Below are positions 3,966 to 31,063 of a DNA stretch of 39,032 nucleotides, piece by piece. The DNA comes from a virus. The notes beneath the pieces were generated by a model, which saw nothing but the letters and a program-made list of their open reading frames with translations, had not been told where the DNA came from and did no database searches. The stretch lies in IMG/VR virus record IMGVR_UViG_3300030090_004288, positions 1 to 39,032 of that record. The stretch is one strand, 5' to 3'. The first letter of the stretch is position 1. Each line of letters begins with the position of its first letter. Position numbers and translations under genes: made by a program.

Positions 3966-4849
3966 TAGGAAGTAGGTGCAGTAGCGTCCGACTGAACTTC
4001 AAATAGCCAGTTCCCTGCACTCCGCTCGCCGTATGCGTACTCGTCATAGAGATACACCACGGTTGCGCCACCACCGATATCCTCACGGCGAACCGTGGCG
4101 GTACGGGGAGCGCGTCCCTGCACCATAACGATAGCCTCTTGAGCGAACACGCCGCCCTTGGCATCGTCGGTACTGGAGTCAATGGTGATGTTCCCGTCTT
4201 CAAAGATTTCAACTCCCGCAATCTTGCCACGGAAGCCTTCCTCGAACACACGGGCTGTGATACCAGAGATGTCTGACCGTTCAGCCGTAGAAACGGCGGC
4301 AGTCAATTCATCATAAAGGTCTTTGATCTGGAAGCCGTGGAGTACCGCACGGTATGGTGGGTTCCCAGGCTCAGTTGCATTGCTACTGATTCGGTAAGCC
4401 GCAGCAGCAATGACGCCGGATGCCAGGGTGGTGCCTGCGCCAGAAAGAATTGTGGTCGCCCCGTCAAGGACAGTGAGGCCGTCTTCGTCCTTCTTACGCT
4501 GTATGGCGTTCTGTGCCAAGCTACCGAGCTGGGCATAGGACTGTGAGTTAATACGGGCAGCTACCCGGTCAGTCACCAGGGTTTGAATACCAGTAACGGT
4601 GGGGGTGATGCTAAATACCGTATCAGACATCTGCTGTGGGTTATCCAATACAGTTGTTTCGGTGATGTTCTGGGCATTTAGCGCAGCCATCGAGATCTCA
4701 CGCCAGCTGGTGCCGCTACCCTCAGCGAGGGTAACCTTATCTACCAGGTTGGGCATGACGCCCTCATATTCACGGATCTGCCGGGCCGACGCTACAACGG
4801 TGTCAAGGCTATCGGCCAGTGATTGGGTAATGGTATCGCCAGCAGCCAT
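3965..4849 (-). CDS. Major capsid protein
   Basis: A 294-residue coat protein forming the icosahedral shell. Support comes from its place directly after the scaffold gene, its length, and the typical plan of an N-terminal helical arm followed by a mixed core. The core contains TDRVAARINSQSYAQLGSLA, PYRAVLHGFQIKDLYDEL and a late AGVEIFEDGNI segment. It resembles the P22/N4-like and other HK97-fold coat proteins that lack an N-terminal delta domain when scaffold is separate. The ribosome site GGTAGGAA lies just before the ATG. A probable promoter at 5647-5675 drives scaffold and coat together. HK97-fold membership is inferred from context and pattern, not from a search. Confidence 0.8.
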   Translation of the reverse strand: MAAGDTITQSLADSLDTVVASARQIREYEGVMPNLVDKVTLAEGSGTSWREISMAALNAQNITETTVLDNPQQMSDTVFSITPTVTGIQTLVTDRVAARINSQSYAQLGSLAQNAIQRKKDEDGLTVLDGATTILSGAGTTLASGVIAAAAYRISSNATEPGNPPYRAVLHGFQIKDLYDELTAAVSTAERSDISGITARVFEEGFRGKIAGVEIFEDGNITIDSSTDDAKGGVFAQEAIVMVQGRAPRTATVRREDIGGGATVVYLYDEYAYGERSAGNWLFEVQSDATAPTS

Positions 4850-20473: not shown

Positions 20474-20526
20474 TGCCCAATAGCTACTCACTCGCCAATA
20501 GCAAGTATCACGCTATAGCATAATAG

Positions 20527-20670
20527 CTATTACGCTACCGGATACTACTAATTAGAACAAATGTTCCGATCAGCCTTTGCTACGGGAAGCTACCAATTAG
20601 AACATATGATCTAATCGCAGCTTTTGCTATCGTGAACTAGCGATTAGAACATAGGTGCTATAGAACATAA
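20527..20670. repeat. Three degenerate 45-bp direct repeats with ATTAGAACA core and GAAC-N4-GTTC site
   Basis: The core ATTAGAACA recurs at 20551, 20596 and 20643, each preceded by a similar 22-base tract, with a fourth partial TAGAACATA at 20661. The first copy forms GAACAAATGTTC (20555-20566), the GAAC-N4-GTTC palindrome of Gram-positive-type LexA/DinR boxes. The second forms the 20-base palindrome ATTAGA-N8-TCTAAT (20596-20615). The placement upstream of the first early gene suits repressor operators. An iteron role in replication is also possible. Confidence 0.55.
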
Positions 20671-20839
20671 GTTTGAGTGTAATTTCTACCGCTTGCCTAT
20701 AGCGGGATAGCTTTTCCATTCGATAGCTTTAATCGTGCTTAGGTGCCCGCTATGGCCCTATCTCCGGTACAAAATCCCATTTCATTCCATACAGTGCTAC
20801 TCCTTGCTATTTGCTACCATTTTTAGTAAAATGGGATAG

Positions 20840-22326: not shown

Positions 22327-23562
22327 ATGGTAGACCAAATACTATGTGGCGATTGCAATAATACTTTCGCTACGTTCGAGGAGAGGGACAGTCACAACTG
22401 TATCCCTGCACCACCTCCGGTAGTGGAGGAACCAACGGTAGTTGATCAACCAGTAGTGGATAACTTCGCTATCGTCAACAACAATGGCGATGCTATCCAG
22501 CAAGGCATGGTCAACTATGTCATACCCGCCGGCAGTGAGTTAAGCGCACCGATAGAGGATGAGCTGGACCGCATCCTTGATAGCAAGGGACTCCAGCACG
22601 CAGATACTTGGAGTGACTACGGGCAATACCTATTTAATCATATAGTCAACAAGTGCCCACACAATCCGACCATCGCTGCTATAGGGCACGCTGGTATGGG
22701 TAAGACTAGGTTCTTCCAGGCCATAGCCCGTGCTAAGGGAATGGACTTCGTTAGTGTCAATGCCCACCAGGGCATGGACATATCGTGGCTGGTGGGTATG
22801 CCCGTACCTACCAATACTACCAACGGCGTCGGCCTGATCTTCGCTGATGGAGATCTAACAGATGCCATCCGTAGCAGCAAGAACCCCAACGGTACGATGT
22901 TCGTACTAGAGGAGTTCAACAGGGCGCCGCCTGAATTCATGACTAGACTGCATGGACTCACCGACCAGAGTGCGCCACGATGGACACTACCGGAAGCTGC
23001 TGGCATCGGTGATACCTATGTCCCTATACACTCCGGCTTCCAGTTCGTAGCTAGCATGAATCCTAGTGGCGGCGAGTATAACGCAGCCGCTATAGATTGG
23101 GCTATGAAAGATAGGTTGACCGTGACCCTGCCTGTCAATGAACCGCTAGCCGATGAGCTGGCTATCATCAAGGGCTACTTCCCCGATGAGACAGTGATCT
23201 ATAACTCGGATAAGAAAGCTAACGTCACGGTTGGCAGGTCCGCATGGATAAATACATGGGAGAAATTCATCATAGATGCCAGGCCTCCCATCATAGATAG
23301 GCCGAAACCTAGCAACGATGGCTCCATCATGCCATCACTACCACACCAGGTACACCGTGACTTTGGCAGTGGTAGTGGTAGCACTAGGATGTTAAGCACC
23401 AGAACCCTACTAGATATGATGCTACACATCAAGCTGGGTTGGACGCCGACCGAGGTGGCAGTCATGGTACTAGCCGACCGCTATGAGAATAGCGCAGGCA
23501 TAGCCAACAAATTCCTGCCACTATTCGGGAACGGCATCAAAGCAGAGGCCGCTCATGCCTAG
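22327..23562 (+). CDS. MoxR/CobS-type AAA+ ATPase with N-terminal zinc finger
   Basis: A 411-residue ATPase of the MoxR/CobS group. Residues 7-25 (CGDC, then HNC) form a probable zinc finger. A Pro/Val linker follows, then Walker A GHAGMGKT at 120-127, Walker B MFVLEEFNR at 191-199, and a typical MoxR sensor segment (ASMNPSGGEYNAAAIDWAM). The next gene overlaps by eight bases and encodes a CobT/VWA partner. MoxR-VWA pairs act as chaperone-like machines that remodel other proteins, while true CobS works with CobN in cobalt insertion, which is absent here. Phage CobS-like genes are widespread but mostly unexplained. AGGAG stands six bases before the ATG. Confidence 0.85.
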   Translation: MVDQILCGDCNNTFATFEERDSHNCIPAPPPVVEEPTVVDQPVVDNFAIVNNNGDAIQQGMVNYVIPAGSELSAPIEDELDRILDSKGLQHADTWSDYGQYLFNHIVNKCPHNPTIAAIGHAGMGKTRFFQAIARAKGMDFVSVNAHQGMDISWLVGMPVPTNTTNGVGLIFADGDLTDAIRSSKNPNGTMFVLEEFNRAPPEFMTRLHGLTDQSAPRWTLPEAAGIGDTYVPIHSGFQFVASMNPSGGEYNAAAIDWAMKDRLTVTLPVNEPLADELAIIKGYFPDETVIYNSDKKANVTVGRSAWINTWEKFIIDARPPIIDRPKPSNDGSIMPSLPHQVHRDFGSGSGSTRMLSTRTLLDMMLHIKLGWTPTEVAVMVLADRYENSAGIANKFLPLFGNGIKAEAAHA

Positions 23563-29390: not shown

Positions 29391-30131
29391 ATGAGCATCA
29401 AGTGTCTAGCATGGGCGTGGGGGAAACAGCTTCCCCCACTCCCTAAACTTGTGCTATTAGCCATTGCTGACCATGCCGATGATAACGGGTACGCCTGGCC
29501 CGGAGTCAATGGCGTAGCGCAGAAGTGCGGAGTATCCAAACGCACGGTCCAGCGTTACGTTAACGTGCTAGTTCAGCTCAAGATCGTCGATGTCGAAACA
29601 CGCCAACGGCTCGATGGCAGCCATACATCCAACGCCTACCAACTCAACATCCACGGTAGTCACCCCCCCGTGTCAGACAGTCACCCCCCCATGACAGGGG
29701 TGACACCCCCCCATGACACTACTGTCACCCCATTAACCGTCATAGAACCGTCAATGAACCTTACTACTACTACGTTGCCTGAATGGTTCAAGGTGCTAGC
29801 CAAAGAAGAAACGCCTGACGATAACCGGATACGCAACATGCTAGAGTGGGCCAAGCCATACCCTGAGTCACTACTACGTGATGTTGCGCACACAGTGGTT
29901 GATAAGTGGGATATCTATAAGACCAAGAACAAGAGTATATTCTCCACGTTCCAGAACTGGTACCGCCGAGATGCTATATCTATGGGCATCAGGCACGATT
30001 CTAAGAACCCCAATAAACTACCCATCGGCACTAGCATAGAGATCGAACAGCACATCCAATCACAAGGATTGCATCCATCATCTACAGAGGCACAGAGAAT
30101 AAGAGATAACTGGGAGGTTGGGCATGGCTAG
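29391..30131 (+). CDS. Lambda-O-like replication initiator
   Basis: A 246-residue protein. Residues about 10-75 are an HTH_36-type winged helix (VNGVAQKCGVSKRTVQRYV). A Pro/Thr-rich linker follows, and the C-terminal domain (PEWFKVLAKEETPDD, then YPESLLRDVA and FSTFQNWYRRD) resembles DnaD-like and phage initiator C-terminal regions. Lambda O has the same plan and a downstream helicase-loader gene, and here a DnaC-like gene follows. The linker-coding DNA contains four iteron-like repeats (29660-29731). It likely binds these to open the origin. Family assignment is by pattern. Confidence 0.72.
   Translation: MSIKCLAWAWGKQLPPLPKLVLLAIADHADDNGYAWPGVNGVAQKCGVSKRTVQRYVNVLVQLKIVDVETRQRLDGSHTSNAYQLNIHGSHPPVSDSHPPMTGVTPPHDTTVTPLTVIEPSMNLTTTTLPEWFKVLAKEETPDDNRIRNMLEWAKPYPESLLRDVAHTVVDKWDIYKTKNKSIFSTFQNWYRRDAISMGIRHDSKNPNKLPIGTSIEIEQHIQSQGLHPSSTEAQRIRDNWEVGHG
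29660..29731. repeat. Iteron-like repeats, candidate replication origin
   Basis: Copies of TCACCCCCCCrTGwCA stand at 29660-29675 and 29681-29696. ACACCCCCCCATGACA is at 29703-29718, and a partial TCACCCC is at 29725. Starts are 21, 22 and 22 bases apart, about two helical turns. Each has inverted GTCA/TGAC ends. They lie in the linker of the initiator gene, as the lambda origin lies in gene O. Confidence 0.6.
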
Positions 30132-30246
30132 CATACGGAATAGCCTGGTGAGGAAACTTATCTTAGAGATACGTGAACTACGGGAGAAGCTGAAGGAGTG
30201 TACATGTGGAGAGCCTGAACGAATCACTACAAAAATACATGACTAG
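30124..30246 (+). CDS. Small basic protein between initiator and loader
   Basis: A 40-residue basic, helical protein (IRNSLVRKLILEIRELREKL) with a C-terminal CTCGEPE. It overlaps the initiator by eight bases and the helicase-loader start by 41 bases. No strong ribosome site is seen, so coupling is probable. It may be a small partner of the initiator or loader. Function unknown. Confidence 0.4.
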   Translation: MASIRNSLVRKLILEIRELREKLKECTCGEPERITTKIHD

Positions 30247-31063
30247 CCTAGACCATATACCAGAGGAGGTGAGGTACATACCTGAAGATGGGATCTGTCC
30301 TGAGTGCAACCAGCTCAAACGCAACCATCCCCAGGTTAATAAGGTGCTAGCTGCACGCCAGCTGCAATACATAGACGTGGACACGGGCGACCTAGTTGTA
30401 GCCCAGCCGATACCATACTGTCGGTGCGGTGATGCGGTACAAGAACGTGCTGCCAACCAACTCGATGATGCGTTGAAGCGCGAGCGTGACAGCAACCTAC
30501 CGCAGTCGGTTCACGGCGCCGGGCCTCGCATGTTCCTGGACGCCACGTTCGAGAACTTTACTTCTCGTGTCGGGACGACCGAGGGGTTTGAGGCGGCCAT
30601 TGATTTCACTGTCGGCAATACTGCACCCATCTTAATGCTGCTTGGTGGAACAGGCACGGGCAAGACACACTTGATCGAGGCTATCGGCCGGCAGTATCTA
30701 GCACAAGGAAGCACAGTACGCTACGAACTCGTCGCCCATCTGTTAGAGAAAGCACGGGCAGCCGTGCGTATCGGCGCTGAGGAGGACGTGTTTACCCCTA
30801 GCTATAAGGCTAATCTCCTGTTGTTAGATGACATTGGGCTAGAGAAGCCTAGCACATGGGTGGCAGAACAGATCAGCGCACTCGTAGACGAACGCTACCG
30901 CAACAAGCGACTGCTTGTACTGGGCACTAACTGTACCTACATACAGTTAAAGGATAGCTACGGCGAACGCCTAGCTTCACGACTGTTCGACACGGCGTCT
31001 GGTACAGTAGCGCAGGTATATCTTAACTGCTCGGACTATCGGGCTGGAGTATCCGATGCTTGA
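30206..31063 (+). CDS. DnaC-like helicase loader ATPase
   Basis: A 285-residue AAA+ ATPase that loads the replicative helicase onto DNA. Walker A GGTGTGKT is at 147-154, Walker B LLLLDDIG at 204-211, sensor TN at 241-242 and the SRLFD motif, including the arginine finger, at 258-262. The N-terminus adds a cysteine cluster (CPEC at 31-34, CRC at 72-74), a zinc site also seen in phage loaders. The GTG start at 30206 has GGAG seven bases upstream. With the initiator it forms a lambda O-P-like replication pair. It overlaps the RusA gene by eight bases. Confidence 0.85.
   Translation: MESLNESLQKYMTSLDHIPEEVRYIPEDGICPECNQLKRNHPQVNKVLAARQLQYIDVDTGDLVVAQPIPYCRCGDAVQERAANQLDDALKRERDSNLPQSVHGAGPRMFLDATFENFTSRVGTTEGFEAAIDFTVGNTAPILMLLGGTGTGKTHLIEAIGRQYLAQGSTVRYELVAHLLEKARAAVRIGAEEDVFTPSYKANLLLLDDIGLEKPSTWVAEQISALVDERYRNKRLLVLGTNCTYIQLKDSYGERLASRLFDTASGTVAQVYLNCSDYRAGVSDA

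Follow-up and report, generated by a model that had tools for sequence, protein, structure and literature searches.

Few phage replication origins have been mapped, and most of these are in model phages. In phage lambda and in Stx phages, the origin lies inside the initiator gene O (PMC7466680), between the parts encoding the DNA-binding and C-terminal regions of the protein; it contains dyad iterons (20-24 bp apart in lambda, as measured in locus L198), the opening region lies directly downstream of the iterons, and the loader gene comes next (PMC7466680). In Staphylococcus phage 80-alpha (ORF20-ORF21) and in SPP1 (G38P, oriL), an initiator gene with an embedded origin is likewise followed by a helicase loader, and the failure of 80-alpha ORF20 to be complemented in trans is genetic evidence for the embedded origin (PMC5499656). 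Staphylococcal RepA_N plasmids such as pSK41 have an N-terminal winged helix that binds Rep boxes in the central part of the rep gene, and the pSK41 origin encodes a dispensable linker (PMC5703833). RK2-type iteron plasmids (TrfA, DUE 13-mers) have two repeat sets: iterons in duplex form and another set that plasmid Rep proteins bind as a single strand (PMC4081077).

The locus analyzed here lies in a viral DNA of 39,032 nucleotides (IMG/VR record IMGVR_UViG_3300030090_004288), which as a whole is referred to as the window, and its layout resembles each of these systems in the respects just given, with protein binding and strand opening being inferred for the window. The tandem iterons are intragenic and lie between the two domains of the initiator, and a helicase-loader gene is located directly downstream, as in lambda. 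However, the iteron sequence is unrelated to that of lambda, as had been predicted, a GAACCGTCA array occupies the position of the AT-rich tract, the loader is DnaC-like rather than P, and the initiator is of the HTH_36 type. In contrast to the window, pSK41 is a plasmid whose C-terminal domain contacts DnaG, and RepA_N is not among the Pfam matches of the window protein; for 80-alpha and SPP1, the bearing sections of PMC5499656 contain no iteron or 9-mer array of the window kind; and the RK2 13-mers are AT-rich, while plasmid Rep proteins have two winged-helix domains and the window initiator only one.

The N-terminus of the initiator matched HTH_36 (PF13730) at residues 13-65 (E=1.3e-14; 54.1 bits versus the curated Pfam cut-off of 25), and the protein matched the PHROG replication initiation and O-like families phrog_1032 and phrog_391, which places it among the HTH_36/O-like phage initiators. 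RepA_N (PF06970) was absent among its Pfam matches at E values up to 0.001. In the AlphaFold2 model, pLDDT exceeded 95 over residues 1-70 and was 87-88 over residues 71-90, followed by a low-confidence linker at about residues 90-130 that encodes all the repeats. The C-terminal region is the probable contact to the loader or the helicase, as inferred. A structure search with Foldseek returned many tied winged-helix matches, the weak ones including RepA chains and the N-terminal domain of DnaD. In the phage records searched, the window had no relatives at the DNA level, protein relatives were found only below 60% identity, and an IMG/VR search with the loader as the query gave no match. Elsewhere in the window, the best PHROG match of an AAA_5 ATPase (22327-23562) was labelled porphyrin biosynthesis (CobS-like by name only).

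Table 1. Features of the proposed origin and its surroundings in the window.
Feature	Position	Strand	Remarks
Initiator gene, HTH_36/O-like, 246 aa	29391..30131	+	frame carrying the proposed origin
Winged-helix domain, residues 1-88	29391..29654	+	AlphaFold2 and PF13730; recognition helix SKRTVQRYVNVL named by alignment
Iteron 1	about 29659-29675	+	TCACCCCCCCGTGTCA / GTCACCCCCCCGTGTC
Iteron 2	about 29680-29696	+	TCACCCCCCCATGACA / GTCACCCCCCCATGAC; spacing 21 from iteron 1
Iteron 3	about 29702-29718	+	ACACCCCCCCATGACA / GACACCCCCCCATGAC; spacing 22; frame shifted by one
Fourth, half iteron	29724..29731	+	GTCACCCC; spacing 22 from iteron 3; abuts the 9-mer array
9-mer array	29734..29764	+	TAACCGTCA 29734-29742; GAACCGTCA 29745-29753; GAACCTTAC 29756-29764
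C-terminal region	29765..30128	+	AlphaFold2 model helical, low confidence
DnaC-like AAA+ helicase loader, next gene	30206..31063	+	IstB_IS21 E=2.5e-15; phrog_50 E=9e-34

The repeats at 29659-29731 comprise three near-identical 16-mers and a fourth half copy at steps of 21, 22, and 22 bp (Table 1). Counting motifs was weak evidence, with three matches at up to three mismatches versus 1.0 expected from shuffles of the window; the tandem spacing is what is decisive for the iterons. The best three-copy score in the initiator gene was 42, while 400 synonymous recodings of this gene, drawn with the phage's codon use, averaged 25.6 and peaked at 36, so that none of the 400 reached 42, and no other place in the whole window reached this score. 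Copies three and four are out of the reading frame of the first two, and therefore selection acts on the DNA.

The same constraint was observed across the family. Among 70 non-redundant relatives, the commonest repeat spacing in the same linker was 22 bp (944 observed versus 96 expected after synonymous recoding), a peak missing from the HTH and C-terminal regions of the same genes. This step is not a multiple of 3 and breaks the reading frame, yet it is the commonest family-wide. Recoding, family spacing, and control regions together show that the iterons are constrained as DNA and not only as protein. The original prediction, made from the sequence alone, thus held in several parts: the repeats are spaced 21-22 bases (the third copy has one mismatch to the pattern given then, and the fourth half copy is an addition), they lie in the linker between the winged-helix and C-terminal domains, and they are followed by a DnaC-like loader. 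The cytosine runs, which had been considered odd, are not, as C or G runs next to dyads are common in the family. The proposal of a lambda-type origin inside the initiator gene is well supported by comparison and by no experiment; without binding or replication data, we consider it highly likely that the linker iterons are part of such an origin.

Most iterons in the family consist of a C or G run and a variable dyad, and the half-site words tend to follow the recognition-helix class of the same protein. An RTxxR helix occurred with TGACA in the window, in Brucella (L099 and its IMG/VR copy L009), in Campylobacter (L091), and in L033 and L166; the other pairs of helix class and dyad word were RGxQK with GAAC, RAVQ with TGCA, RNANY with CTGCA, DRKTV with AACGG, and VRNA with CGGCA. 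A Mantel test of helix against iteron words gave a correlation of 0.21 (0/2000 permutations), which was 0.17 with the rest of the domain held constant (0/2000), and the control with C-terminal DNA gave 235/2000. Iteron similarity correlated more strongly with the rest of the HTH domain (0.30) than with the helix, and therefore shared descent contributes and the helix alone is unproven as the cause. The association itself is shown; it offers only indirect, inferred support for binding of the iterons by the initiator.

Base composition did not reveal an AT-rich opening tract adjoining the iterons. The segment 29721-29780 had 50-60% A+T in 30-nt bins, only slightly above its surroundings, and the array found in place of such a tract was about 45% G+C per 11-mer, with a small local G+C dip beside the iterons. 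This absence weakens the claim of strict membership in the ori-lambda class, but not the claim that the locus works like one. The GC skew of the window showed no sharp turn at 29.7 kb. A DnaA-dependent origin was not supported, since TTWTNCACA boxes were absent near the array and the sole box of the window lay at 2345. In a few relatives, a perfect TTATCCACA DnaA box was seen beside or shortly before the iterons (L146, L152, and, in the linker, L075); in the 70-gene set, such boxes numbered four in linkers, none in HTH regions, and one in C-terminal regions. The other candidate origin named in the original prediction, at about 20526-20672, contains three to four TAGAACATATG-like repeats spaced 45, 47, and 16 bp in an intergenic region between leftward and rightward genes, and these look more like repressor or promoter operators than an origin.

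The interval originally predicted stops just short of an element with wider conservation. Immediately after the iterons, TAACCGTCATAGAACCGTCAATGAACC (29734-29760) consists of GAACCGTCA 9-mers at 11 bp steps, so that successive units are read in different codon phases; the third 9-mer of the window, GAACCTTAC, is degenerate and keeps only GAACC. The first relatives carried the array DNA too, some in another reading frame, but they had been partly chosen by that very DNA, and the array was therefore tested further. Scanning IMG/VR with the pattern GAACCGTCAWWGAACCRTC gave 77 loci, 71 of them immediately behind a winged-helix domain within an open frame and 6 in genes cut by a contig end; in every case the array lay on the initiator gene's sense strand, and each of the three codon phases was represented. 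In GTDB genomes, 50 loci matched, of which about 30 were initiator linkers or had iterons upstream, and the remainder look like chance (about 15 chance matches estimated). Host labels included Streptomyces, Campylobacter concisus, Aquidulcis, Verrucomicrobia, Opitutales, Brucella, Roseovarius, and many Burkholderiales; metagenome bins in this set may be mislabelled, and it is likely that the hosts of array-bearing phages and prophages span several phyla. The layout is common to distant phages in several phyla. Bordetella phage PHB09 (L199) is one carrier of the array, and Pseudomonas phage LESphi3 (L201) has a degenerate version. Array matches in plasmids were at chance level only, and outside initiator linkers they were not above chance. 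No description of the array was found in the literature searched, the matches of which were only partly examined and, as far as examined, did not concern phage replication, so this is not proof that it is unknown; the origin literature searched gave lambda, SPP1, 80-alpha, and RepA_N, none with the array.

Array units occupied more than one codon phase in 51/51 non-redundant genes, and synonymous recoding would keep the array in 8.4 of these 51 genes (0.4% for the window gene). Additional units outside the scan pattern were present in 22/51 genes on each side, versus 0.0004 expected per gene and side, at spacings of 9-13 bp, and the 9-mer is therefore the unit. As these 51 genes were chosen by the array motif itself, a set selected by protein is the unbiased and weightier test. 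It was drawn from HTH_36 searches of GTDB genomes in four host groups, because 20 diverse HTH domains, when aligned, proved too divergent for a locus search. Among initiators chosen by protein family alone, 7/39 had the array no more than 450 nt downstream of the HTH domain, versus no array clusters in 168 kb of control sequence taken from these loci. The array is thus not obligatory, most protein-selected initiators being without a clear copy.

Three loci stood apart in these scans. In Oceanospirillum linum (L085, about 2532-2550), GGTGTCACCATGACC iterons and an array occur in a 68 aa frame in which no HTH domain was found, possibly a copy in decay or else an origin that is not within an initiator gene. 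In Thiocapsa marina (L126), a 419-aa frame in which the HTH model used found no domain has GCGTCATGCCCC-like iterons and an array at its extreme end (4735-4753). An HTH_36 initiator frame with the three 9-mers AAACCGTCA/GAACCGTCA/GAACCGTCA (L137) belongs to the same genome of Bifidobacterium stellenboschense as an exact-pattern match (L101) that looks like chance.

The array remained constant while iterons, helix class, C-terminal domains, and downstream genes varied. The genes following array-bearing initiators encode a DnaB-like helicase, a lambda-P-like loader, a DnaC-like loader, or a primase-helicase, and the C-terminal regions are highly diverse among relatives. Because both vary, the idea that the array is read by one particular loader or C-terminal domain was rejected, and the recognition helix was disfavored, as several helix classes share the array. 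In the protein-selected set, the array was found in 7/16 initiators with an MSI-type N-terminus and in 0/23 without it (Fisher p=0.0007). This association points to the initiator itself, in its invariant part, or to a partner that this clade has in the host, and it could also reflect clade inheritance (shared ancestry). The best candidate reader, inferred from co-occurrence only and unproven, is the invariant N-terminal face of the initiator. Plasmid Rep proteins bind iterons as duplex and DUE repeats as a single strand (PMC4081077), which makes such two-site reading plausible.

We propose that 29659-29764 is probably the replication origin of the phage, within the unstructured linker of the initiator gene. 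Winged-helix dimers would bind the 21-22 bp iterons on one helix face in an O-some-like complex, the layout being shown and the binding inferred. This complex would strain and open the neighboring GAACCGTCA array, whose position is shown and whose opening is inferred, and the exposed strand would be held by the initiator complex, probably through the invariant N-terminal face and not the variable recognition helix. The C-terminal domain and the DnaC-like loader would then bring host DnaB, as inferred from the gene families. The layout, the DNA-level constraint, the helix-iteron association, and the near-constancy of the array in phages having it are shown; binding, opening, and DnaB loading by the DnaC-like protein remain inferences. 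Against the full explanation stand the lack of binding, opening, or replication data, an array that is not AT-rich, and the lack of a sharp turn in GC skew, and we hold it with moderate confidence.

Alternatively, the reader of the array could be a host factor shared by many bacteria (e.g. a helicase, a primase, or a DnaA-class protein), the origin being otherwise as proposed. This would explain a constant array amid varying phage parts, and the array indeed varies little among phages and prophages of several phyla, beside different loaders and C-terminal domains. However, the array tracks one initiator clade, is not above chance in plasmids or outside initiator linkers, and has no DnaA box near it in the window. 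It is unlikely that the iterons alone are the origin and the array an RNA or transcription signal (e.g. pausing, processing, or antitermination in the early transcript). The constant placement on the sense strand of the initiator gene fits such a signal, but in phages whose operons differ the array still comes immediately after the last iteron, and these data do not separate its orientation to the iterons from that to transcription.

A recombination seam for the exchange of HTH and C-terminal modules would account for an array with a variable HTH domain on one side and very different C-terminal domains on the other. Nevertheless, a crossover joining arrays of different frame would disrupt the gene, unit number and spacing vary (9-13 bp), and the array is always beside iterons, which makes this reading very improbable. 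Finally, the repeats could be a proline-rich linker under protein-level selection without a DNA role, as the window linker encodes S/T-H/P-P motifs and many relatives have EPS or TPP-like strings. This explanation is practically ruled out: the 22 bp and 11 bp steps change frame, three codon phases are used, the frame test refutes it, and synonymous recoding destroys both the iterons and the array.

With the linker origin as the preferred reading, a bolder version can be stated, toward which the balance of evidence falls slightly short: phages of many bacterial phyla may share a two-part linker origin, in which phage-specific, helix-following iterons are joined to a near-invariant GAACCGTCA array that would serve as a common strand-opening or helicase-loading code, recognized by the invariant N-terminal face whatever the reading frame, the C-terminal domain, or the type of loader. 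A layout readable from the sequence alone would allow origins to be predicted in many uncultured phages and prophages, and cross-reacting initiators could be predicted from the relation between helix and iteron. The conserved array raises the question of which protein reads a code shared across phyla, and synonymous recoding can address this because the protein stays unchanged.
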